Below are positions 7,450-62,985 of a stretch of 64,000 nucleotides of DNA, one piece after another (within the stretch, counting starts at the first letter, position 1; each line of letters begins with the position of its first letter). This DNA is from Sclerodactyla briareus. Taxonomy: Eukaryota > Echinodermata > Holothuroidea > Dendrochirotida > Sclerodactylidae. The stretch covers positions 62,001 through 126,000 of the forward strand of contig JAODTK010004921.1 in the NCBI GenBank assembly GCA_026419785.1, read 5' to 3'. The notes beneath the pieces were generated by a model. The model was not told the origin of the DNA, searched no databases, and saw only the letters and a list, made by a program, of their open reading frames with translations. Both the position numbers and the translations under genes were made by a program.

Positions 7450-8870
7450 CAAAGTTGTGAAACCCTTTGTGGATATCTAGGAAATCAATGGGAGGACAAC
7501 GGTTCATCCCGGAAGACTGGAAAGCTGCAAATATCACACCATTGTTCAAAGAAGGCGAGCGTACGGATGTTTACAACTACAGACCAGTGAATTTGACCTC
7601 GTTACGGGAAAAGATCATGGAAAAAAAAAAAATACGGAGAGATGCAATGTGGAACATTTGGAGAGCAATCGAATAATACTTGAAACGCAGCACGGAATCA
7701 GCAACGGGAAGTCAATGTGTGACAAACATGTTGCCATACTGGGACCAAAAGTACAGATTTGTAGACAGGCGTATTCCAGGGATGATGTGGATTTGGACTT
7801 GAGAAAGGCATTCGATACTGTACCACATAATAGACTGATTACAAAGGTTAGCGCGCACGCACATAAGGCCAATCTTGGAACTGGATGGCAGAATTGGCTT
7901 AAAGCATAAAGACAGAGAGTGATTCTCGAAGGAGGAAGTGAGAATCTGAAGGAAGAAGGGGTGACCAAGTAAGTTGTGCAGGGATCAACTAACTTGGCCT
8001 ATATGCTTCACAATATTTATGAATGAAATTATATGGAATCTGGAGGGTGAATTCGGATGTTAAAGCAAGTTTGCAGATGACACCAAAGTTATGACAAAAA
8101 CCAATGAAAGGGGAGAAGATCGGGGAGCAGCTACAAGAGGGGACATTAACAAATTGATGGCAATGTACAGAGAATGGCAAATGTCGTTCAATACTGATAA
8201 GTGCACAATCTTGCATTTTGGACACAACTACCCCACATTATACAGACTCCATGAATGGAATGAATGGAGCACTACGGAAAGGGAGAGACCTTGGGAGTCA
8301 TATCAGCACATCTTGAAACAGCAAGCAGCTGTGCGGAAGCAGCAAAAAAGCAACCAAGTGGTGTGAGGCATGTGATCGAGAGGAACTTTATCAATATGGA
8401 CGAAGAAATTGTGGTTAACCTATAAAAGTCATTGGTGAGACCCCTGTAGACTACTGTATTCAGTATGGAGGCCAACCTGGCAAAAGACATTAAACTGTTA
8501 AGAAATGTCCAAAGAAGGGGACCCAACTGGTGCCCAAGTATTCGAACTACAGCTATGCTGAGAGATTGAAGGAACTGAAATTGACAAACGTCAAGGAAAA
8601 GGCCATACACGGCACGACCTCATAACACTGTACAAAATAAAATAAACGAGAAGAAAGTCAAACTGGATTTAACAGATAGCATCGACTTTTTTGGCAGGGA
8701 AATTCAACGCGGAGGGACACAGCAAGGAAATCAGACCAAAGTCACAGTACGGACCTAGAAGCAAGAAGAAAGGAAAGCACTTCATTTTTCAGTCGTATAT
8801 GGAAGACAGGGAGACGAATTGCCCGAAGAAAGTTAGTAGTCAATCCACCCACACGGAACAGATTTAAGAG
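7450..8870 (+). pseudogene. reverse transcriptase remnant of CR1-like LINE
   Basis: Recognisable pieces are: FIPEDWKAANITPLFK (from about 7503), YNYRPVNLTSL (about 7571), DLRKAFDTVPHNRL (about 7796-7837, carrying the first catalytic Asp), FADDTKVMTK-like (about 8070-8099), WQMSFNTDKCTILHFG (about 8174-8221), SLVRPLVDYCIQY-like (about 8428-8465) and YAERLKEL (about 8556-8580). The end resembles the NFFT.RVV..WN.LP tail of CR1/Rex1 elements. Several frameshifts and in-frame stops show decay, though some may be assembly errors. Confidence 0.8.
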
Positions 8871-39260: not shown

Positions 39261-41760
39261 GAGCGCAGGGCTATTATAGCCTATTATACAACAATGTTTG
39301 ACGCTTCTCTACCAGGTTTACTAACAGTTAAGCAGCCTAGTCTTTATCCTTTTCAAACTTTTTTTTCAAATTTTTGGAACAGTCTGGGCTCGTCACAGTC
39401 ACGTGCCAGTGGAAATCAAGCATGGAACTCCTGTATCGGATTGGTGAATGAATATGCTCTATTTACTCAATCCCTCCCAATGTTTTGCTTATAATTACTG
39501 GACACGAGATTGTGAATCCCAGATTTTGTTTCCAAAATTCACCCCACCACCTGAGACTATAATGGTTCACAAAAAAGCAGAGCTGATCCTCTAACTCATG
39601 ATCCATGTGAGGCAACTGTTTTCTCCAAAGTTGGTGAGATGAGCCCAAAATTAGAGTTTGAATCGGATAAACACTAGGCTGCTTAATTGTTGTTAGTCAT
39701 TGCAGAGGGTGCAAACCATGTTTATTAGTATAGGCTAGTTCCATGTTGAGGGGGCCTTTGACTCAGCCTACCTACAGCCCCCGTCCCCCTCACTGTTCTA
39801 TGGTATATAGCCCTATCAAACTCCAAGGTTTGAATCTTCTGCCATTGACTAACAGTTGAGCATCCTGCGTTTATCCGAGTGAAACTCAAATTTTGAGCTT
39901 ATTCCATTCCACCGATCTTGCCAGGAATACAGTTGCCTCCTCTGGAATATCTGTGTTGAACTTGTCATAGTCTTGGTGTTGATGGATTCTGGTCTCAGAC
40001 AGAATGTATGCTTGGTCTGATCAGGTTTGAAATTTTGTGTGCCCTTCCTTTTCAAGGGCATAGGTATACCCTGTGTAAGGACAGCTGAGCAAGAGGACTA
40101 TTTGTTGAAATTTAGTGTGTAGCTTTTTTAATCACGAGTATAGTAACCCTATTGGTTAGTTGGAGGAAATGGGAACTTTGTCAATGTTTTATGTTGCCAA
40201 GAAAAACTGGTACAAAATCTCCATTTACCTTGTGTCTGGCTATCGGTTTACTCAAAAGTCAAGGAATCACTATAAAGCCTTTTGGCATTCTTGTACCATT
40301 TTATTCAGAGTGTCTCCAAGACAAAATAGAGATGCGGGCATTCCAAGCATCCTACTTTGGTGTCGCAGTCTATGATGTGTCTCGTTCGCAAAAGCTAGAT
40401 TCCAGAAGCACACCCCGGATAACGTCAAGGTCATAAATTTCAACCAGCGGTAGAATGCGGGACCTTACCGAGCCACATGGGGACTCTATCGCTCGCGCCC
40501 TCTCCCTGGCTGTATGATGAGGCCAAGTTTGGTATCTTCACCATGCACTGGGGGGTTTACTCGGGCCCTGCATTCCAGAACTAGTGTTTCTGGAGTAGGT
40601 GGAAGGAATGGCGAGAAGGACTACGTCTACTTCAGAAGGAACGACCTCCCCGCCCCGATTCCAGTACCCCGACTTTGGGCCCTGTTCCTGCAGAGATGTT
40701 CGATTGGCCACCACTTTGCGACGTACTTCAGGCATCTGGTCACAGTGGGTAGTCATAGCGGGTTGTGCCAAAAACATTCAACCTTTGGATTTAAGGCAGG
40801 TTACCGCTTTAGACTTGTTGTCAGCAAATTTGAGATAAAAATCGAATTCTTAGACTGCCATTTGTACCTGGGAGTCAAAATTGTATCTATGACAAGGGTC
40901 TCCAGGCAATTCCTTGAAAAAAGTCTCATGTTCAGTGTCCTTATACTACTTTCATGACATTCTTTTGATGCTCTGGTGTTTGGCATGGTTGTGCATGATA
41001 ATTGTGTTAAATCGGTCAATTGGCATCGCATTCACAATATTGGCATTACCACCATTTACCTGAGATGTCCAAATGCAATATCTAACTATAATGCTTATTC
41101 TTCCGTGGCTCATATTTTAGAGTTCTCATGCCCAAATGTAGTCCACAAAAACCAAGTTCCAACAAACTTTAGTCTAGTTCACAGTTTCTTTGACCCATAT
41201 AAACCTTACACCCCATGTGCCCTTGAACATCTGACAATATTGAAAACACAAAAATTCACATTGGCCACTCCATCACCCAGTGTTCGCGTAAGGTGCGGGA
41301 GGCGATCGCGGGAATCCCGCATAAGCAGCCAGAATCCCGCAGATAAAATAAATTGTGTGCGGGATATTCACGCACAGACTTCCCAACCAGGATTGCAAAA
41401 ATTAGGGTGTATAATAGGTTGGCGCGGTTCCTATATCGATCGATAGCTGAAAAAAATCATGACAACGTACGAGGGCAAACCGCACATACATGTGCCCACT
41501 GGTCATGACTAGTAGTACTTAGTACGCAGGCAATTATTACATGTATAACTACTACATTCTTCCATACATACGTTATAGCATATTATATGTAACAAGCCCG
41601 GCCCCAAGCCCCACCAAAACAGGTACGTCACTAGTGCAATTACCAGTAATTATTAGCTCTAAACGTAAACTGTGATTTTTTAGCAGGAACACTGAAGCAA
41701 GGCACTAATTCTAAAAAAACCACCAAGACAAGGTAAAACCTAATCTGTATGATGTTTATA
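39261..41760. other. unrecognised sequence with two adjacent ORFs
   Basis: Two open stretches on the plus strand, 40514-40957 (147 codons) and 40976-41446 (156 codons), lie 18 bases apart in different frames. Neither translation shows a motif I recognise, and the minus strand is also partly open at 40538-40777. They may be remnants of one disrupted repeat-encoded protein. No gene is called. Confidence 0.25.
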
Positions 41761-49552: not shown

Positions 49553-49661
49553 GAAGGTATTTTGTCCTGGACAGCACGCATCATGAAGGTTTCACAAACT
49601 GGCTCCAACTACTCCTGGAACTGGAATGCAGTTGACCTGGGGCCAAACAGGGATCTTGTTG
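49553..49661 (+). CDS. fucosidase exon A (HHEG region)
   Basis: Follows the acceptor TTTCTCTCAAAG (AG at 49551-49552) and ends at G/GTGAGT. The first half reads [16 protein letters not shown], matching [16 protein letters not shown] of the GH29 barrel, where the HHEG histidines bind fucose. The second half reads [20 protein letters not shown] in another frame. Between the two Trp landmarks 13 bases are present where the family needs 15, a net loss of two bases. The donor splits the final Gly codon after its first base. Confidence 0.85.
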
Positions 49662-52600
49662 GTGAGTCACTCTGGCGACCACCTTGTAATCATGGTGGAA
49701 AAGGGATGACTCAGCTACTGAGTCCCTTTTTTTGTGTTCAGTGTCATGCAGGATCATAGACTCCAGTCAGTTTATGATGAAAAGTATATATTTGGGGGGG
49801 GGGGGGGGGGGGGGGTCCTGTTTTTTCTGCACTTGAGGCCAAACTACCTACTCAATTGCATAGTGACAGATATCTCATCCCCTCCATAAAATGGCTATTA
49901 CTGATTTGCAGAAGGCAGTCGTTTCTCTTGATCGAGCTGGTTGTGTTACATTTCTCCCTTTATCCCGCAACCATTCTCTGCATGCTACCTCATGAGCTGT
50001 TAACGCAATTCATTCTGGGATCAAAAGGATCACAACATAATTTCCACTATGCATAGCTGCTGAGGGTCAGCATCGGAGCCCCGTCCTAGTTTTCCAAGTG
50101 TTACAAGTGGTTCTGTCTCAGGAGCAATCACGCCTACTGTGACTTGATCCAGTAAACCTGGAGGCAGAAAGAATCCAGAATGTCCTTAAAACTATAAATT
50201 CAAATAGAATAATATTACGATTTGGTCAATACTGGTTCAAGTAATCGAAACAAGCTCTGAATCAGAATGGAAATTATTAGTTTTAGTAGGCATGAGCATT
50301 TGCTGTAATTTTAAGGACGGAGAAATGTTGAAATCTTGCGCAATTAATATCGGTCACATGGTTCTTTTTTTTTGGGGGGTACTGACCCCTCCATATATCA
50401 ACAGTCCTTGCCTATTAGCTGTCGATAAGATGATATGTCGACCGTGTCATTAACATAAATTATTAATTTGAGGCTGTACGAACAGTTAACATAACTGAAA
50501 TAGCTCACATATTGATGAGTGTTGGTCCAATATACTGGAGAACCAATATTTTAATATTTATTTCATAAGACAATGCTCTCCTCCGCCTTTTCCTCAGCGG
50601 AGCGTGCTGATGCAGTGTCAGCACAATTCAGTTTGCTTGTACTCTCCCCTAATTTGATTGGTTCCACCCATCCACCCATTGTTCTTTTGAAGGATCAAGG
50701 GACTAACTACATACTCCAGACACCACTAATGAAATAATGTTGAGGATGAATATTGATTTCAACACATATTGGGGCTGTAGATAATGGGAAGCATGCAGAT
50801 CGGTTGTACCTTTCTTTAGTGCCAAACTTAGACACTCACTTGAATCCTATAACCATTACCATAAGCTGTTTGATTGTGGTAGACAGCATTTGCAGGACTG
50901 GGGCAAGTATCCCCCAGTGGGGAACCTAGTAGTCATACAGGGGACATGTCCTCCGCCCAATAATGTGAGTATGCTATGCTGATTATAGTGAGATAATGTT
51001 CCCCCTATGACTGCACATGAAATAATGCCCATGGTGGTGGGGATGAGTGGGTAGGATAGTGAGTGATTGGACGTGATTAGGTTTAATTAAAAGAGTCAAC
51101 AGTGAATGAATTCACATGTGTTGTAGAAAGGAGTGGGCACATTGGTTTATTCTATTTGACTCCTACCCTTAGCCCACAGTGGGGACCTGACAGGTCGGTG
51201 AGAGAACAAGTACCATGAATTCCATGGTAGAGGGTAAGTACTGTTAGATACTGGTGGCCCACAGCAGGTACATGTGGTTACCTACAATCACTGCTGAAAG
51301 TAACAAACAAAACTTCCAGATGAACTTCAGGTTAATTCTGCACGGTTACCCCTCGGAGATAGCCGCACGGTATCAATTTGATAACCGAGTCAACCCCCTT
51401 TCAATGTTGTTGTCAGCATTGAAAAGTGTTTAGGGATGGTTTTCTTTCACTTTTGTTGGGGATTGTAGGTAGGTGAAGAATAATGTGCTGAAGTTCTCAT
51501 AAAAATTATATCATTGCACACTTCCACGCCATGGAATGACCAGATGAAGTTAGATGAAAACTGTAATATCAACGCCTTGGCACCAATGTCGTTGCAGGTA
51601 ATGTTATTCCTGTACGTCTAGAATTACATCTGCGTAACATCTTCACGTACCTTCATTTTTTTAACCGATGTAGAATGACTCTGTCCAAATTTACCCTTTG
51701 TATTTTTTGGTGTTTAAAGAGAAATTAATTACTCATTGTTTACGCCATAGTCTGCAATCACACTCATCTGTACACAATGCATTGACCATATTCGTGCTTG
51801 TTCATTGCATTAATTTGCACCCTCATGTAGTAGTAATTCATATAGTGAAAGCTTTTGTTTTGTCTTTAGGCTGGCTTTGTTTCTGGTAACATAATTCATT
51901 ATGACAACTAATCAGGGCACTGCTGTGATAGTGGAAATTTATGAACGACCCAGTGTCAGCACGTGCTGCACGACTGAACGCTGGTGTATACTTCACTGAA
52001 CGTTGGTGTATTTTATTGGGCAGAACATGTAAGTCGTGAGGTGCCTCGAATCTCAGGAAAATTTACTGCAATTTGAAATAACGTAGCGGAACTCTTCGGA
52101 GGAATTTCACGCAAGTGAATTAGTTTCCTACTGAAAATTTTAGAGGAATTCGTATTTGAAACGGGAATCTTCTGTACTGAAAACGTTATGTTTCAAGACA
52201 TAAATCAGAGAATCATCATACACAGTCTTCAATTGGTCAGTATTTTCTTACTTTTAACAATATCTGTTAAACCTCATAAACACAGACCCAATGAAAAAGA
52301 ATAATTTCTTCTTATTGGAAAATTTTATTTCATGAACAAGAAAACATGAGACTTATATGCAGTTTATGAATAGTTCTTGCATTCAATGAAAAGTAGATTC
52401 TGACATGTACAGTAGTACTGGTAATAGGAACTCAGTCGTTCCGCCGTCAGTACTGCGAGTACCAGAACTAAGGTGTATACTGGTACAGTTTATACATGTA
52501 CCATGCAAAATTAGTTCCCAGTCAGGTCGAAGGTCAACTTACTGTAGTTTGAAATCCACAATGAACAGAGAAGCCGGCAAGGCTTGATAACTAGACAGAT

Positions 52601-55063
52601 TCCTTCTGCCGTTTTCCGTATGGAGTCCGAGAAGTGATGTGACTGGCATCTACTTCAATATGAATGGCTACTACTGTAATCATGTGACAGGCTAACCTAA
52701 CATCTAACACCTAACATCGGTTTCTCTCTCAGATGGTAATGAAACCGCAGCTTCACGAACTGATCAACAAGTACAAGCCGTACGTGATATGGTCTGACGG
52801 GGACTGGATGAGCCCAGACACGTACTGGGACAGCGTCACGTTCCTGGCATGGCTCTACAATGAAAGGTTTGTGGGATATTTCCATTTCACCCATCCCTCT
52901 CAATTTCTCTCTCACACAGATGGTGATGCGCCCCCAACTCGAGGAGATTGTGAACAAGTACAATCCGTACGTGATCTGGTCGGACGGGGATGCTGGGGCC
53001 CCGGACCAGTACTGGGATAGTACCGGCTTCCTTGCTTGGCTCTACAATGACAGGTTTGCAATTTGGCCCTGTGAGGTCAGAGTATTGCTGGCTAATTACA
53101 TCTCCCTGCAGTCTGGGGGTAGGGTGCTGGGGTCAGCATGAGCCCCCCCCTGATCTCATACTAACTGATCACAAGCAGAGAGCGTGGGGTAGAGCTCAAG
53201 CTCATGGTACTCCCTGCCCTTCCTAAGAGAGTGAAAACATGGAAGATATGCTTTCATGCATATCTATTGATATATTTCTAAACATGATTCATCTTATTAA
53301 TTGATTTCGGATAATGGTGCGATTGAAAGTGTGTTGTAGAATTCCAGAAATCAATCAATTCAGTACATATGCATAGCATTCCTGTTAGTGAATGTCAGTG
53401 ACTGATGCATAAGGACCTATTGCATCTTACATAACATAGACAGTCTGATAGATACCTGGAAACATTACATAACAAACCAGCCTACATGATCAGTGGAGAA
53501 TGTATACTCCAGTGCATGTGTCTCAAGGTGTGTGAGAAGCTGATCAGCCTAAATGATGGGAAAAGGGCGCACATACAAGCATATCTGGTAAGAGCGCAGC
53601 GTCACGTTTTTGTCACTGTGGAAGTGTATAGCTTATCCTTTTCTAACACACATTCTCAGCTGGTACATGGCTTTCAGGCTTGCATGTTGGCATAAATATA
53701 CAGTTAATCATAGCAATTTAACCCTTTATCATGGGAACAGTCTACTTACACATCTGCTTTGTTGATCAGGTAGTCAAAAATACAGACCCTTCCCCATTTT
53801 TTGGAAAACTTCATCAGGATTTCATGGAGCATGCCGGTGTTGTGCATGCCCACAGTGAGGTCACTCCAAGCGGTTATCTAGGGCGCCCTTGCAGTTGGTG
53901 TTTGCTGCTGGGCGATACCCATGTGTGTTCCTCCGTTAGTTACAATTCAATTTGATAGCTCCCAGGCGTGTGGGGGTTGAAGCAGCCTCCACATTAGCCC
54001 TCAGGACAAGCTGAACCTGCCCAATTTTTGTAATTTTTGGCTGTAAGTATGATCTCTTCTGCCAATGTAGAGACCCAAGAGGGTTACTGCCAAGCCCTAG
54101 GTCATTGTGAGAGACCAGTTTAGCACCAGATAATATTCTATTCGGTCTAGCCCCTTCGACAGAGCTTCAGACTAGACATCAACATATCGTGGGTTTTAAT
54201 TAGTTTTTCTGGTGTATCCTTGGGCAGGGCTCCTTATTGCTGTTTCTCCAAACTACCTAGGTTGTAATTGGGGAGCCAGGGATCTCATCACCGCCTGTAC
54301 ATAAGATGCTTCAACATAAGTCCGATCGTTGGGAGTGCATGTCTGGGTCAGTATTAGGGCTATGCATGTGATGTTTTTATACCAGCAGCAATGTACAATG
54401 TCTCCATAGCATGGTCTGTGAGATCACAAGAATTCACACTGTATCACGGCACTGGTAGAATTTCTGCCTGATTGGTTAGTTGCCTTGTATGCAATCAATT
54501 GGGCACAATCACAGCAACAAATTGCAAAGCACAGTTGTGTGTAAAATGTTCTAATTGTTTTGATTTTGTGAAGCAAAGCCAGAATTTACCACTGTTGAAC
54601 AAAAGTTTGGGTGAGAGCCAACTAAGGTTCTTTCAATATTGCTATGGGAGGACAGTACGTGACTTTTAACATCACACAGCCACATCCTCCATGACACTCG
54701 TGACACCAATTTGCACTCACATCACATGGAATTATTGAAAAAATTACTTCCTTCTTACTGCAATAAAGTGGGTTTATATAATGGAGCCTACCGGTACTCG
54801 GGGGACAAGAATCTAGGCCAGTTTGAAACAATAAATATTGAATGTGTGATCACTCATAGAAATTGGCATGAGTAGTGCGGGGGGTAACAACCAGAAATAT
54901 TATTTCCTTGAAACACTATGCACCCTGCCAATATGTGATGCTGTATTGGTTATCACACGCATACGTTGAAATGTCTGAATGGGAATTGATTTCTTTAATA
55001 TTATATATTATAATAATTATATATCTATATATATCTATATATATATATATTATATATATGTAT

Positions 55064-55190: not shown

Positions 55191-58100
55191 CTATATATAT
55201 ATATAATATATATATATATATATAATATATATATATATATATAATATATATATATATACTTGATAGAAAATGACTTATATATACAGCCATCTTGCCTTGT
55301 TTTTCAACTCACCTCATCTCGTTCAACTCATCAATAATGTTTGGATGATAAATCCCTGGGAAATTTAATGATACATTCAATGAGGGCATCTGTGGTTGCA
55401 AATCGTGTTCATAATACACTGTACTGCAGGGAATGTTCTTTCCTTTGTTGATTTCTATTTGCAGGAGTCCCTCCAACAATTTCTCATTGCAGTGTCAAAG
55501 CCAGTAAATTGATGGCATTTGTAGTGGGATGGCTTCTCATGACAGGTTGAAGGAATTTTGGCAACTAATCATCCGTTGCATACTAGCAGAAACGCGTACA
55601 CTCATTAGGAGTCTAGAGAAAACTTGTACTTGTGACGTGGAGACACTATGTAACACTGGTGTTTGATGTGTTGTAAGGGATGTCTCTAACTAAAGTGTGT
55701 TGGATTATGACATGCTTTCCTGATTGCTCACTCTACTTGGTAGTAAATGACATGCTGTTGCCCCAATGCAATTCCCCCCCCCCCCCCCTCTCAGAAAGAC
55801 AATTTTAAAAGGTACAATGCTTGTTTCATAAAAATGTTTCCACTAAAAGATTCAGGGGACTGTCCTACCCCTGATGCCCCTTAAGAAACTGCTCTTGAAT
55901 GTCATTGATGTAGCCTTTCATTAATATGTGTATAATCTGGGTAATGTTTTCTGCTCTGACATCGTGGCACAGCCCCGTGAAGGACTATGTGGTGGTCAAC
56001 GATCGATGGGGGTCCGGAGATGCCTGTCACCACGGTGGGTATTACAACCTGCAGCGACCGTTATGACCCTGGTAAGACAGCAGTGCGCTAATCTGAGGAC
56101 ATAACAGGCAGGCTGGAGGCACTTGGAGGCTACCATACTAATCATTATATTCCTCACCTGACCAAGTCTGCTAGTGCATTAAAAACTCATGTCTCTCATC
56201 AGTAATATACTTCTAAAAATCAATCACATTCTGCTCTACAGGTATTTTCGATATGTTTCGTGAGTTAGGCAGAAACCATAATATTGTGTATCTACATTAC
56301 TTGCATTCGTTATCTGTCCTTGCACCCTGCGATTTGTTCCCTCACTATGTGGCTGAAATGCTGTTGGAATAAAGTTACACCTAACACACTTCAACATCAC
56401 AAATTGCTCGCATTCTCTGTTTGCTACATCAAGTCGCTTCTGATCCATGCAAAATTCTCTTTCTAAACAATTACCAACGAACCATTGGGTTTCTAGAAGG
56501 GTAAATATATCTTGTCAATATACATTGCCAATATGTGCTATAATACTCACATACTCTCTCAGTCAACAGTAGTGCTAGCTCTGCACCACCCATCACTAAG
56601 CCTAATCGAACTTACCCACAATTTCAAACTGAGACAATACAGTGTGTTCTATTGTTCTTGCTACATCACAGCCCTGTCAAGGATTACGTGGTTGTGAATG
56701 ACCGTTGGGGCAAAGACGCAGGTTCCACCACTTGGATACTTACATTGTCGCCGTACGACCAAAAAAAAAAAAAAAAAAATGGTGCGATTAGCCTCTTTCA
56801 GGTTTCATCAAGTAGTTGCAGACTAGCAGTTGTAGTAGCAGCATGGAGCTACTGCAATTCATGCACTTGTGATATATTTTCATCGGAACTCAGATCCAGA
56901 TAATGATAACACCAATCGGTTCGCCCACTTCTGCTTTTCCTCTTCTCCTTCTTCACCTGTTCCCACATACAATGGGGTTGCCAGTTCATATCCTTCTCTA
57001 TTTTACTCTTGTATGTGCACTTTTCCATCTGGCTCTGGCTCTGCCTCTGTATAGATATATACCTCTTGGGCCTGTCTCATTTTCTCTTTCCAGCCTCTAT
57101 GCTCTCCACTCTCTTGATCCCGACATAGTCTCCTTTCTTTTAGTACATGGCTTAACCATCTCATACGTGTCTCTCTCAATTTCATACTCATTACCACTAC
57201 TCCCATCTTCCCTCTTATTTTCTTCGTTTGTAGCCTCGTTCATCGTGTTAGACCCATTGCATGTCTTAACATAGTCATCTCGGCCACCTCCTGTCGTTTT
57301 TGTCATTGCTACTGTCTCCATCCCATACACATGGCTGGTCTGATCATGAGCTTGTACAGGCGGCACCTCTTCACTGCTGTGGGCACCTGCTTAATATAAC
57401 ACAACAGCCTCGTCAGCTCCAATCAACTATTCAATCCTGCTTGGATCCTTCTCGCCACATTTCCTCCGCTTCCACTGTTGGTCTGTCATCTTCATGTGGG
57501 TAATATCCAGGATACAGTCAAGGATTTGATCAGATTTGAACTGAGTTCGCTCTGTTGGAGGTTGGCGCTTTGTAGGAAGCAGAGATGATAAACATACGTC
57601 TTCTCTTGATTTATCACCTGAGATGGTTTGAACAGCAGCATCCACTGCTGGATTTTCACCATACTTGATGATGCTTGCTGTAGCAGAGTTCTAATTTTAC
57701 ATCTATAGGCCAGTTCACGGTGCGCATGCTCACAACTGAGTCCAGGCTTTCAGTTTTGGGGCACAGGTTACACTTTCCATTATCAGTAGGGCCTATTTTC
57801 AAACAGTTACCAGTCAAGTCAGTCAGTACACACATTGGATGTCCCTACATTTTCAAGACCTGCCAACTTTTAGTCCATGGTCATCACAAACAAATCTGCC
57901 ATCTTGGCTTGTGCGATGTGCTAGTTTATATGCAAGTTCCTCGTTAGCATTCATTGCCAGTATATCATGATCATCAACTCTTTTTTGGATTGATAATGGT
58001 TGTTCCAAGTGTCTCTTCATCAGCCTGGTATGTCCTCAGTTAATTTTTATACCTATATACATTGTAATGCAGAGTAAGCTACTAACATAACCTGAATTTA

Positions 58101-61100
58101 TTTCACTCACAAACTTACAAGAAAGTTATGTTAGGGTGAAATGAAGTGAGGCGTTTTTCCACCAAGGTTATATAGCTTGTGAGTATTTCATTTAGTGGGA
58201 TGAGTTCGATGAATGTCACACTATGGCAGCTTTTCAAAGAAAAAACAATAGATATTGGAGAGAAAGCTATTTGTTTCATTCCTGAGATACTGATATTCAC
58301 TGATAAAGCTCTTATAGTCCCCATGCTGTCCAGTAGTGTGCCATGTCCTCCAATTGTGGTGTAGGCCTCTGTTAGGCTGAGAGTGATAGGATAGGCTAAT
58401 CAGAGTTCCTTGTCTGATTTAAAGTTTCATTCCGCCTTGATTTCATGTCCTCACTTTCTAGGCCACGAAGCTTCCAATACTGCAGTGATTTATTGTATCG
58501 ACTGATATGAAAATACAATTGAAGAAAAGATCTGTTGTAACGATAGTATTAGGTCAAAATCTTATATTGTGTAATAGGTCGCCGTGTCGTAACAAATAAT
58601 TTTTTTAAAGTTGGCCGGCTTTTTATGAAAATTTTGCAGACTGATCACCATTTTCTCCAAACCAAATGATCTGACTGCTGTAATTTTCACTAAAGTGCTT
58701 GAACTTGTAGATAAGGTATCTATCGTTCGATGGCATTCGTTTTCAATATCATTGATGCTTATTTTCTCTAATATTTCAAAGCTGAATGGAGCTTTAATAG
58801 TGGACTAAAGGAGAAAGACAGACAGTTTCAAAGCATATGACTTTGAAACAATTGCAGTTACATGCATTTGAATCAACCCCGTCATGCTGGAATCACTGCT
58901 GACAACATACTGTATCAATGTCTTGTTCAGGTGGCTGAGGGCACCACAAGTTTAGCAAGACCCAAACTTGCACTGAGGTTGCGTGTGGCTGAAGGCACTG
59001 CAAGTTTAGTAAGACCTAAAACATGCTTTGGGGTTGCATGCAGCATTTGGAATAGTGATGACACTTGTGTAGGAATTCGGGGAGGAATTGAAGAAAACCT
59101 GATGATGATTGTGATGATGGTGCTTCTATAGTTTCGTGTACGAACTGACTGCTGTGCACTTCAAAAGTGTGTAGCAATCTTGCTCATTTAAGGAGCATCC
59201 CGTTCTACTACACCAGCTATTTCGGAAGTGACCTAATGCACTGTTTAGGCAGCTGAACTTATTCTACAGGCTGGCTCACTTCCAGATGATTGTTTCATGC
59301 CTAGGTGATAACAATTAGATCTACTGTGGAACGAGTTCATGGTGCTCTGCGTGCAGCAGTGTTGTAACGAGTCAAGACTCGAGTCACTACTTTTGAAAAA
59401 GGTAAGACTCGGGCGAATGTTTGAACATTTTTCCCCATTAAAATAGTACAGTGACTTGAGTCATTGTGACTCAACTCGAGTCACATTAGGCTCTCATATT
59501 CAGTGACTCGAGTCCTATTTTCGAGGGACTCTTTACAACCTGGGCGTACATATGCACTGGAGTTGCGTGTGGCTGGGTTATCACAGTTGAGCAAGACCTA
59601 AATGTTCGGGGCATAAGGCCCTCTCTAAACTTAATGCCTACAGGTTTATTCTACCATAACAGTAATGTCCTCTGTTCTGGGCCTTATCATAGGCTTCCAT
59701 GATTCCTTGCAATAATGATATACTGGTGTATATCTCCTGTTACAGGAATAAGTGTGAGAACCAGTCGCCTTTGCATGACTGGGAAGAAATGCCGGTAGGC
59801 CATTCCAGTATGTACCATATTTAGGTGTGAAACTGTAACACTATGGTCTGTTGTGTCCCAACTGTAATCCCTTATGTTCACAGGGGTCCTCCAACCTCAC
59901 AAATGGGAGAACTGCTACAACATCGTACAATGTATCTGGGGGTAACCGTCGTGATGCCAAGTTCTCTGACTACCTGACCATGGATGAGATCACACAGACC
60001 CTGGCTGAAACAATCAGGTAATTGTTTGTATGTAAGTCTCAGCAGAGACTCATCTCGCCATTCTCAGCTCCCTGCCCCTCCACCCCCTGCCCCTCCGCTC
60101 CCTGCCCCTCAGCTCCCTGCCCCTCTGCTCCCTGCCCCTCCACCCCCTGCCCCTCGCTCCCTGCCCCTCCGCTCCCTGCCCCTCAGCTCCCTGCCGCTGC
60201 CCCTCTGCTCCCTGCCCCTCTGCTCCCCTCCACTCCCTGCCCCTCAGCTCCCTGCCGCTGCCCCTCTGCTCCCTGCCCCTCCGCTCCCTGCCCCTCAGCT
60301 CCCTGCCCCTCCGCTCCCTGCCCCTCAGCTCCCTGCCGCTGCCCCTCTGCTCCCCTCCACTCCCTGCCCCTCAGCTCCCTGCCCCTCTGCTCCCTGCCCC
60401 TCGCTCCCTGCCCCTCCGCTCCCTGCCCCTCTGCTCCCTGCCCCTCCGTTCCCTGCCCTCCTCAGCTCCCTGCCCCTCTGCTCCCTGCCCCTCCGCTCCC
60501 TGCCCCTCTGTTCCTGCCTCTTCCGCTCCCTTCCCCTCTGGCTCCCTGCCCCTCCGCATTCCCTGCCCCACTCCGCTCACCCATGCTCCTCATCTCCCTG
60601 CCCCTCGCTTTCCCTGCCCCTCCGCTCCCTCCCCTCCGCTCCCTGCTTCCTCATCTCCCTGCCCCTTCCTCCTCCTGCCCCTCCGCTCCTTGCCCCTCTG
60701 CTCCCTGCCCCCCTGCCTCCTGCCCCTCCACTTCCTTCTAGCTCCCCTTCTTTTTAGCGACATAGTTACTCAGGGACTATCATGGCACCTCTGGAGTTTT
60801 TCCTCTTTACGAAGAGCTGTAATACTCTGAATTTAAAACCAGAAGAAGAGAGAGAAAGCAACGAGAGAATATGACCCACAAGAGGAAGAAAAAAATACAT
60901 GGAAAATGCGAGAGACATATAGGAAAAAAAAGGAGAAAAGAAAGATGGGGGGGGGGGGGGGGTGAAAAATTCCCAGAGGCACTCCAGGCAAGAGCTCATC
61001 AATGCGATCGCTGTTGGAAAGCAGAAAAGAAAGAGGCTAAAGAAAAGTTTTTTTTTTTCACAGATCAGATCTCTGACCTTATTATCTAGAGGTGTCCTCT

Positions 61101-62934
61101 GTGAGGGGGTCCTACTCATACCCCTATAAATTAAAAAAGGGACAAAAGATACAGACAGCACTTTTTCTCAGCAGCCTCAAGCACAGCCCGACATAGCACA
61201 CTTTTACCTTACTACAGAATGCATCAACAATTCTTTGACTTAAATCATCAATTGGATGACTCTATAACCACTCAAGTGGCTTGCATCAACATGCATTGAC
61301 TTGATCATCATTGGATGACTCGATACCACTCCAGTGGTGTGCAACATGCTTTGCCATTGAATCTCAATTGATGACTTGCTAACTACTCCAGTGGTGTGCA
61401 TCACAATGCTTGACTTGACTCATCATTGGATGACTTGATAACTACTCCAGTTGTATACATCAACAATGCGTTGACTATCATCAATTAGCTGCCTTGATAA
61501 CTACTCCATGTATTCATCAACAATGCTTGACTTGATCATCAAATTGGCTGACTTGCTACTACTCCAGTGGTGTTCATCAACAATGCTTTGACCTTGAATT
61601 CATCATTGATGACTTGATACTACTCCGTGGTTGCATCAACATGCTTGACTTGAATCAGGGTATTTGATGACTTGACAACTACTCCAGGGTGTGCCATCAC
61701 AATTCTTTGACTGAATCATCTTGGATGACTTGATAACTACTCCAGTGGTTGCATCAACAATGCTTTGACTTGAATAATCAATTGGATGACTTCGCTAACT
61801 ACTCCAGTGGTGTACATCAACAATGCTTGACTTGAATCATCATTGGATGACTTGATAACTACTCCAGTGTTCATCAACAATGCTTTGACTTGCATCATTA
61901 TTTGGATGACTTGAACAACTACTCCAGTGGTGTGCATCAACAATGCTTTGACTTGAATTATCAATTGGATGACTTGATAACTACTCCAGTTGTGTGCATC
62001 CACAATGTTTTTGACGTCCAATCAGCAAGTGGATGACTCATACTACTTCCAGTTGTATGGCAAACAAACAATGTTTCTCTTGAATCATCATTGGTGACTT
62101 GATACTACGCCATTGGTGTTCCCTCAACAATTCTTTGACTTGAATCACAATTGGATGACTGATGACGTACTCTTGTTGTGCATCAACAATGCTTTGACTT
62201 GAATCATCATTTGGAATGACTTGATAACTACTCCCTGGTGTGCACATCACAATGTTTTTGACATCACTCTCAATTGGATGACTTGATGATACTCCCATTG
62301 TAGGCATCAACAATGCTTTGACTTGAATAATTCGCATCAACAATGTTTTTGACTCGAAACATCAACTGGGATAACTATTCCAGTGGCTGTACATCAACAT
62401 GCTGACTTGATCATCAATGAATTCTTGCTAACTTACTCAGTGGTGTGCTAGGCTTCAATACAAACCAGTTCTTTTTGCCCTTAATTCAGTTGTGGTGGCA
62501 ACCTGCTGTTGAACTTTGGTTCCTAACTCCATGATGACTGATCCATCCCGATCTTCGAGGAGAGACTGAGGCAGACTGGGGCCTGGCTGAAGGTCAATGG
62601 GAGGCTGTCTATGTCACACCATGGACTGCACAGAAATATCCCCTGACCAAGGGAGTTGGTGATCCTGAATTACCATAGATCACAGGTTGTCCCATGGTTG
62701 GGAGGGGGGGTTAGACCTGTATAACATGGAGAGGCTGTCTATGGGTCCAAACCATTGACTGCACGGAATGATACTCTGACTAAGGGAGTATGGTGAGTCC
62801 TGAATTACCTTATAGCACAGGTTGTCCCCATGGGTTTGGGAGGGGGGGGGGGTGACCCTGGAATCATGGAGAGGCTTGGTCTATGGGTCCCAACCCTGGG
62901 ATTGCACAGAATGTACTCTGACCAAGGGAGTCTG
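49553..62934 (+). CDS. FUCA1/FUCA2-like: tissue-type alpha-L-fucosidase gene (GH29), partial, with duplicated exons
   Basis: The product would be a lysosomal or secreted GH29 retaining glycosidase that removes alpha-L-fucose from glycoproteins and glycolipids. Seven exon-like pieces are visible: A 49553-49661, B 52733-52866, B' 52920-53053, C 55973-56071, C' 56672-56781, D 59884-60017 and E 62490-62658, with two partial E copies to 62934. Junctions B/C, C/D and D/E are phase compatible and give family text. A to B is not (A ends after one base of a codon, B starts at a codon), matching a missing exon for the GLYHSLFEW region. The N-terminal exons and C-terminal beta-sandwich exons are not seen; the latter should lie beyond the window. 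Exons A, C, D and E each need a small indel to keep frame, so this is a pseudogene or an unpolished assembly. Confidence 0.85.
49662..52732 (+). other. intron, with an expected exon missing
   Basis: Contains a run of 22 G (49794-49815) and no recognisable repeat otherwise. Family proteins have about 50 residues between exon A and exon B (the GLY.SLFEWF.PL region), and I could not find coding sequence for them here on either strand. The exon may be lost, collapsed in assembly, or too damaged to recognise by eye. Confidence 0.5.
52733..52866 (+). CDS. fucosidase exon B, nucleophile exon, FUCA1-like copy
   Basis: Preceded by TTTCTCTCTCAG and followed by a GTTTGT donor; 134 nt starting at a codon boundary and ending AG, so the Ser of NESPVK is completed by exon C. 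Open throughout: [19 protein letters not shown] then [10 protein letters not shown] and [13 protein letters not shown] carries the Asp that is the catalytic nucleophile (Asp225 in human FUCA1 numbering). The loop after it, D-W-x-x-P-D-T-Y-W, resembles FUCA1 (EWECPDTYW). No frameshift is present. An almost parallel copy lies 53 nt downstream. Confidence 0.92.
52920..53053 (+). CDS. fucosidase exon B', nucleophile exon, FUCA2-like copy
   Basis: Preceded by TCTCTCTCACACAG and followed by GTTTGC; 134 nt, same start and end phases as exon B. Open: [19 protein letters not shown] then [10 protein letters not shown] and GFLAWLYND. The loop after the nucleophile, [19 protein letters not shown], is close to FUCA2 (GDGGAPDQYW). 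By hand count it shares 96 of 134 bases and 32 of 44 residues with exon B. Splicing B to B' would shift the frame, and the 53-nt spacer leaves little room for the spliceosome, so B and B' are probably alternatives. Confidence 0.9.
55008..55258. repeat. AT microsatellite
   Basis: About 250 bases of TA repeats with small interruptions inside a fucosidase intron. The Tyr/Ile ORFs on both strands are artefacts. Confidence 0.95.
55774..55788. repeat. poly-C run (15)
   Basis: Homopolymer followed by TCTCAG, inside the intron before exon C. Confidence 0.9.
55973..56071 (+). CDS. fucosidase exon C (VVNDRWG / HHGG region)
   Basis: Follows ATCGTGGCACAG and ends at G/GTAAGA. With AG from exon B or B' it reads [18 protein letters not shown] then CHHGGYYN, as in the family (SPVRGTVVTNDRWG..KHGG). 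After YYN one extra C (AACCTGC) puts the rest out of frame; without it the end would give the family's C-S-D-R-Y-D-P-G. The exon ends after one base of a codon, which exon D completes with GG. Closer to FUCA2 at its end (CSDRYNPG) than to FUCA1. Confidence 0.88.
56672..56781 (+). pseudogene. fucosidase exon C', second copy of exon C, damaged
   Basis: Follows GCTACATCACAG and starts in the same phase as exon C, reading [17 protein letters not shown]. The rest is recognisable but shifted: TCCACCAC for TGCCACCAC, then GGATAC.TAC and TTGTCGCCGTACGACC, the equivalent of HHGGYYNC..RYD. A run of 19 A (56761-56779) then precedes TG/GTGCGA, a possible donor. Either an alternative exon hit by indels or a decayed duplicate. 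Confidence 0.75.
56885..57370 (-). mobile_element. LINE C-terminal fragment (RTE-like), inside fucosidase intron
   Basis: On the minus strand, two overlapping frames give [21 protein letters not shown] text (about 57350-57300), [13 protein letters not shown] (the NE..R...G segment, about 57243-57205), then [19 protein letters not shown] (about 57192-57136), the family's I..KLRE.RLRWFGHV.RR, and further charged residues before a W..R end. This is the RT thumb and tail of RTE/BovB-type or similar LINEs. Truncated at the 5' side and frame-broken. Confidence 0.7.
58931..59038 (+). repeat. 54-bp tandem duplication
   Basis: GTGGCTGAGGGCACCACAAG at 58931 and GTGGCTGAAGGCACTGCAAG at 58985 start two copies of a 54-bp unit (shared text: TTTAGCAAGACC or TTTAGTAAGACC, GGTTGC.T). 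A weaker third trace (GTGTGGCTGG...GAGCAAGACC) is at about 59567-59600. Confidence 0.75.
59368..59530. repeat. cluster of palindromic TGACTCGAGTCA-like words
   Basis: ACTCGAGTCAC, GTGACTTGAGTCA, GTGACTCAACTCGAGTCAC and GTGACTCGAGTC occur within about 160 bases, in both orientations because the word is self-complementary. Includes AP-1-like TGACTCA. May be a small repeat or a regulatory cluster. Confidence 0.5.
59884..60017 (+). CDS. fucosidase exon D (acid/base Glu region)
   Basis: Follows TATGTTCACAG and ends AG/GTAATT. It starts GG (completing Gly from exon C) then [19 protein letters not shown], matching HKWENC.TID..SWGYRR; the Glu of KWE aligns with the acid/base Glu289 of human FUCA1. 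After TGG a run of five G puts the following codons out of frame; with one G fewer the text continues [18 protein letters not shown] and TLAETI, close to FUCA2 (ISDYLTIEEL). The donor leaves AG, completed by T of exon E as Ser. Confidence 0.87.
60066..60745 (+). repeat. 15-bp pyrimidine-rich minisatellite (CTCCCTGCCCCTCNG)
   Basis: About 45 copies of a 15-bp unit, with CAG/CTG/CCG variants at the end and occasional shortened units, beginning some 50 bases after the exon D donor. The complementary strand is rich in GGGG and GGG runs spaced for G-quadruplexes, the C strand for i-motifs. The proline/leucine/serine ORFs of 239 and 257 codons across it reflect the repeat and are not called as genes. 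Confidence 0.95.
60746..61210. other. intron segment with poly-G run
   Basis: Purine-rich stretch (60840-60960) with 16 G at 60947-60962. The 131-codon minus-strand ORF (60766-61161) crosses this low-complexity block and is not convincing. Confidence 0.5.
61215..62445 (+). repeat. 62-bp minisatellite
   Basis: About 20 tandem copies of a unit close to GCATCAACAATGCTTTGACT, TGAATCATCAATTGGATGAC, TTGATAACTACTCCAGTGGT. Copies differ mostly by single-base indels rather than substitutions, which points to sequencing or assembly error on top of real divergence. It ends about 45 bases before fucosidase exon E. Confidence 0.95.
62490..62658 (+). CDS. fucosidase exon E (GGNLLLN / EERLRQ region)
   Basis: Follows TGCCCTTAATTCAG. 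T completes the Ser from exon D, then [10 protein letters not shown], matching SCGGNLLMNIGPT of FUCA2. A short stretch (62519-62540) with extra bases and a stop covers the PT.DG residues, then [20 protein letters not shown], the FEERLRQMG.WLKVNGEA region. After AATGGG one base seems lost; the next frame reads [18 protein letters not shown]. The donor is degenerate here (TTG/GTGATC), while the two downstream partial copies keep G/GTGAGT. Confidence 0.85.
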
Positions 62935-62985
62935 GTGAGTCCTTTTACCATAAGTTGCTTCATTGTTGGGGGGGTGACCTGGTTT
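62601..62985 (+). repeat. tandem triplication of exon E 3' half with its splice donor
   Basis: Units of 130 and 140 bases start with GAGGCTGTCTATG (62601), GAGGCTGTCTATGGG (62731) and GAGGCTTGGTCTATGGG (62871). Each holds the coding text for E-A-V-Y-x and onwards, the donor ACCAAGGGAGTCTG/GTGAGT or its variant, and intron text with a poly-G run. Copy 2 fits the family better (EAVYGSKP, with TLTKGVW before its donor) than copy 1. No acceptor is visible before copies 2 and 3. Confidence 0.8.

Follow-up and report, generated by a model that had tools for sequence, protein, structure and literature searches.

A predicted pair of mutually exclusive exons for the catalytic nucleophile in an alpha-L-fucosidase gene of the sea cucumber Sclerodactyla briareus

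Tandem exons used in a mutually exclusive way are a known type of gene structure, described as mostly ancient (PMC9741552), and a known model likewise has splice forms divided between gene copies (PMC5306129). In a survey of human clusters (PMC5740500), potential steric interference is defined by a distance of less than 50 nt from the donor to the branch point, which is found in 57 of 629 clusters, while exons of a length not divisible by three occur in 377 of them (60%). Alpha-tropomyosin, judging from a cited title, is a further system of this type. As to the enzymes considered here, the human nucleophile and acid/base residues are numbered D230 and D281 in PMC12427801 and D225 and D276 in PMC9548408; according to the former, FUCA2 showed no activity on commonly used pseudo-substrates. 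Sea cucumbers make fucosylated chondroitin sulfates (PMC10213396), so the diversity of fucosidases is relevant in these animals.

The window that we analysed is a stretch of 64,000 nucleotides, corresponding to bases 62001-126000 of the 211,756-base contig C2514 in the S. briareus assembly (319 Mb, 3171 contigs). Positions below are those of the window unless the contig is named, and all exons lie on the forward strand. We estimate a probability of about 0.6 that this region carries an animal GH29 alpha-L-fucosidase gene (gene A) in which the nucleophile exon is present as two diverged copies used in a mutually exclusive manner, as predicted from the DNA. The pair itself is real. Exon 5a (52733..52866) and exon 5b (52920..53053) are separated by an intron of 53 nt (52867..52919), and when the coordinates were re-checked they agreed with the sequence-only reading, which had described two fully open exons of 134 nt each with equal phases at this spacing. 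The pyrimidine-tract acceptors (TTTCTCTCTCAG and TTTCTCTCTCACACAG) and the GT donors (AG/GTTTGT and AG/GTTTGC) that it had reported are present too, and the residue identity of about 73% corresponds to 32/44 residues and 96/134 nt. Both donors are weak (GTTTGY); the short intron is complete and has a good acceptor.

Each of the two exons matches PF01120 above the Pfam cut-off (E 7e-10 for 5a and 4e-9 for 5b), and the top PDB match of both is human FUCA1, 7pls (E 1e-15 and 2e-12, respectively). Together with the aspartate nucleophile in the WSDG motif, the PF01120 match places the gene in GH29. Homology assigns the nucleophile to exon 5 and the acid/base aspartate to exon 6; the positions of the catalytic residues were also checked on the sequence. 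The copies diverge right after the motif, 5a reading WSDGDW and 5b reading WSDGDA followed by GAPDQYW.

The sequence-only reading had also stated that the use of both exons would break the frame, and this proved to be so: the joining of 5a to 5b yields NERW followed immediately by a stop codon. The joining of either 5a or 5b to exon 6a keeps the frame up to a frame break within 6a, and the skipping of both copies removes the nucleophile. The locus thus has the features by which mutually exclusive clusters are recognised, namely adjacent homologous exons of equal phase and similar length whose joint inclusion gives no useful protein. The 53-nt intron contains putative branch-like adenines of the yUnAy type at nt 23 and nt 48, that is, less than 50 nt from the donor. 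Because joining would produce an immediate stop and the branch point would lie so close to the donor, exclusive use is the best reading. The branch point may be too near to the donor of 5a for 5a-5b splicing to take place, any joined product would probably be lost to nonsense-mediated decay, and each mRNA would then hold either 5a or 5b. The mutual exclusion claimed at the outset consequently stands as a prediction, favoured by the NERW-stop junction, by the 53-nt intron, by the mostly silent differences between the copies and by a relative with one protein of 5a type and another leaning towards 5b.

The pattern of differences between the two copies suggests that both encoded protein. The 38 base differences are distributed over codon positions 1, 2 and 3 as 10, 7 and 21 (of 45, 45 and 44 sites), a significant excess at the third position (p = 0.0007), and the Nei-Gojobori estimates are dN 0.24 and dS 1.50 (range of dS 1.4-1.5), giving dN/dS of about 0.16. 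In 20,000 random sets with the same number of substitutions the frame remained open in 21% and 32 residues were kept in none. The differences being mostly at third, silent positions, both exons were maintained as coding sequence over most of the period since they separated.

The remaining exons of gene A were traced with homologous proteins, and several limits were read by eye. The N-terminal part of the barrel is encoded by exons 1-2 (40421..40757), which contain many frame breaks and one TAG. Exon 3 (49557..49661, limits read by eye) has one frame break, and exon 4 (50598..50735, limits also read by eye) is weak, broken and has no clear donor, its score being 77 versus a null maximum of 36 with the gene B query and 66 versus 41 with the query X2 (see below). 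Downstream of the pair follow exon 6a with the acid/base region (55973..56071, one frame break in the assembly), exon 7 with the sequence HKWEN (59884..60017, one frame break), exon 8 (62488..62658) and a last exon (label A10), placed with homologous proteins, which lies at 67137, beyond the window. All parts of the protein are present as exons of gene A, with frames broken in the assembly.

A second copy of exon 6, exon 6b (56672..56781), lies about 600 nt past 6a; its start is intact, the remainder is broken and includes a run of 19 A, and the copy looks dead. Tandem repeats at 62601-62939 of the window and at 128446-128607 and 158910-161780 of C2514 have multiplied the 3' end of exon 8 together with its donor, which is of GTGAG type; one BLAST scan counted 5 such copies, native ends included, in the vicinity of gene A and 11 in that of gene B. 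A separate exon 9 of gene A was considered and rejected, as what is repeated is the end of exon 8 (its 3' part) and its donor, caught up in a tandem repeat. Tandem arrays with units of 15 bp and 59 bp flank exons 7 and 8 (60063-60736 and 61220-62328) and show 9-12% indels between units; other arrays of C2514, at 169488 and 183708, show 0%. Broken pieces of a reverse transcriptase at 7481-8363 match PF00078 (E 3e-4 and 7e-4) without reaching the curated cut-off. A search of the assembly for COX1 yielded no match (0 of 1).

A tandem GH29 gene, gene B, is situated on the same strand at C2514 150489-166717 (window coordinates 88489-104717), about 35 kb downstream of the pair and outside the window. 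It has a single exon 5 (B5) of the 5a type; a second exon 5 was looked for in gene B and none was found. Among the matches listed, the closest relatives of these genes are two alpha-L-fucosidase-like proteins of Apostichopus japonicus recorded as 'isoform X1' (P0069) and 'isoform X2' (P0185), which came from the best 120 of 2175 and the best 120 of 348 matches, respectively. Compared with 184 proteins, a joined query was closest to P0069 (72% identity over 435 residues), the next protein reaching 62%. X1 and X2 share 77% identity and differ over their whole length. They are therefore probably the products of two gene copies, though the record calls them isoforms, and do not demonstrate that Apostichopus makes such a choice by splicing. 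In exon 5, X2 is like 5a, while X1 is like 5b in having no tryptophan after the nucleophile.

Frame breaks occur in exons 1, 3, 4, 6a, 7, 8 and the last exon of gene A, which does not read through in the assembly, and at least one is present in every fitted exon of both A and B except 5a and 5b. The numbers of breaks are maxima, as the aligner adds some of its own: two appeared when 5b was fitted to X2 and two in the flank of 5a when it was fitted to X1. It is conceivable that the whole of gene A died recently, that gene B is the working gene and that 5a and 5b are the fossil of an earlier splice choice, and the many breaks and the TAG in exon 1, the missing clear donor of exon 4 and the broken 6b would fit such a history. 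We regard it nevertheless as quite improbable, because the exons of gene B that we examined are broken as well and so are two actin genes used as a control, at C1260:170309-170820 (two frame changes) and at C2792:267460-267940 (one); other actin pieces of the assembly, one of them 402 nt long, have no break. Exon 8 of gene A retains 42 of 46 residues identical to X1 despite nine frame breaks in 150 nt, which is hardly what decay would produce. The differences between A and B outside exon 5 are concentrated at third codon positions (37/34/95), and the end branches that lead to A, B, X1 and X2 in the tree measure 0.17, 0.19, 0.19 and 0.10, respectively. Taken together, the actin breaks, the identity of exon 8, the end branches and the codon-position pattern lead us to read the breaks outside exon 5 as mostly assembly indels. 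Gene death as their main cause is not favoured by the pattern in exon 8 and the broken actin, although the wholeness of gene A is not thereby proven.

An assembly with indel errors, at a locus with tandem genes and tandem repeats, could also have set the exon of some other fucosidase copy beside 5a, and the sequence-only reading had named two collapsed tandem genes as a possible source of the pair. The searches of the whole 319-Mb assembly make this less likely, since PF01120 gave 6 matches from 10 scored candidates and P0069 gave 14 from 22, all on C2514, and neither search revealed a third GH29 gene or a GH29 match off this contig. The P0069 search missed the known exons B5, B6, A7 and 6b, which means that such searches are not complete, that the assembly may be incomplete too and that a broken third copy could be partly missed. 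Exon 5b is, however, too distant from both 5a (32/44 residues) and B5 (26/39) to have been taken from the exon 5 of either gene, 5a and B5 being closer to one another (33/39), and a false join would have had to leave an intron that is short but complete and has a good acceptor. We find a product of assembly very unlikely, and a copying of 5b from another fucosidase gene is not favoured by the same searches, with their matches confined to C2514. Somewhat less improbable, but still unlikely in our opinion, is that one exon of the pair (5b or 5a) is a relic of the duplication which splicing no longer includes, gene A working with a single exon as gene B does. The lone 5a-type exon of gene B, the apparent death of the neighbouring duplicate 6b and the weakness of the 5b donor (GTTTGC) would all agree with this. 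Against it, 5b has neither a stop nor a frame break in its 134 nt, has kept both splice sites and shows mainly silent differences from 5a, and an exon leaning towards 5b is found within the annotated X1 of Apostichopus. Two exons that are both in use, one per mRNA, thus remain our preferred reading.

If so, the age of the choice can be approached by comparing the history of exon 5 with that of the rest of the gene. For the sequence outside exon 5, the tree unites A with B (support 96/92) and X1 with X2 (98/96), and a constraint that joins just A to X2 is rejected (p-AU 0.0017). In the exon-5 tree (44 columns), 5a, B5 and X2 come together (87/80), and 5b joins X1 weakly (79/50). For this exon the test marginally rejects a pairing of X1 with X2 (p-AU 0.048) but not a single group made up of 5a, 5b and B5 (p-AU 0.19). 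The identities point the same way, 35/44 for 5a and X2 and 33/44 for 5b and X1, against 32/44 for 5a and 5b and 31/44 for X1 and X2. Exon 5 reaches a crossing score of +5; of the 259 contiguous windows of 44 columns elsewhere in the gene, not one exceeds 0, and a score of 5 is reached in 0.23% of random 44-column draws. The synonymous divergence of 5a-5b (dS 1.4-1.5) and of 5b-B5 (1.85) exceeds that of A-B outside exon 5 (0.60), and the residue identities agree with the whole-gene dS on the age of the pair. Values for single exons, 1.23 for 5a-B5 in exon 5 (39 codons) and 1.32 for A-B in exon 6, indicate that single-exon dS is a rough clock, and the dating is weakened by the closeness of the 5a-B5 value to that of 5a-5b. 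We therefore have moderate confidence that the pair would predate the split of genes A and B.

The pair may perhaps go back further, to the common ancestor with Apostichopus, in which the two exon types would now reside in two gene copies. More broadly, one could imagine that the splice choice of the nucleophile exon is ancestral to both sea cucumbers, was kept by splicing in Sclerodactyla and was divided between later gene copies in Apostichopus, that vertebrates reached the same end separately with FUCA1 and FUCA2, and that the exons of both catalytic residues were tried as swappable cassettes; this whole scenario is tentative, and we would sooner expect it to be wrong in some part than right. 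As an alternative, 5b and X1, both lacking the tryptophan after the nucleophile, may be alike by convergence.

The sequence-only reading had proposed that one locus with two exons stands in for the two vertebrate genes. The loop of human FUCA2 reads GAPDQYW, as in 5b, and this motif is present in 3 of the 289 proteins fetched (P0115, P0152 and P0166), all unnamed and FUCA2-like, while DAPDQYW occurs in two named plasma alpha-L-fucosidases (P0121 and P0138). In the 44-column exon-5 tree, 5b groups with the Apostichopus and window exons (95/92) and not with P0152, an unnamed protein that we class as FUCA2 type by its loop. The proposed correspondence is therefore not supported as homology, a FUCA2 origin of 5b is unsupported by the tree, and the resemblance of the loops looks convergent. 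With regard to function, the form with 5a, which has the tryptophan beside the nucleophile, would be an ordinary fucosidase, and its absence from the 5b form might alter which substrates are chosen, or how active the enzyme is, at the mouth of the site; any such difference between the forms is a guess.

Mutually exclusive or duplicated exons in the active site of a fucosidase or glycosidase were not found in the literature that we searched, most subscription journals being outside it, and the paper on fucosidase evolution PMC6718869 contains no word beginning with splic or exon. We regard the locus as a plausible new example of mutually exclusive exons in the active site of a glycosidase. If the prediction is true, the swap of the nucleophile exon would allow one gene to make two enzymes with different active-site walls and would permit a direct comparison with the gene pair FUCA1/FUCA2. 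Owing to the conflict between the exon tree and the gene tree, sea cucumbers offer a test of the idea that splice isoforms become paralogs.

Set beside the best described systems, the 5a/5b pair is of a familiar build. With exons 4a/4b of OGDH (PMC7969005) and with the human clusters (PMC5740500) it has in common the adjacent homologous exons of equal phase, the length not divisible by three, the short intron and the single useful exon per mRNA; of the features counted in the human survey, it displays both the distance below 50 nt and the length not divisible by three. What sets it apart from those clusters is that its exons encode the nucleophile with which a glycoside hydrolase performs catalysis, and that their use is predicted from DNA only. 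Like FUCA1 and FUCA2, it has a GH29 sequence with the WSDG nucleophile motif, and the loop of 5b is that of FUCA2-type proteins; unlike the vertebrate enzymes, which are encoded by two genes, the two loops in Sclerodactyla lie within one.
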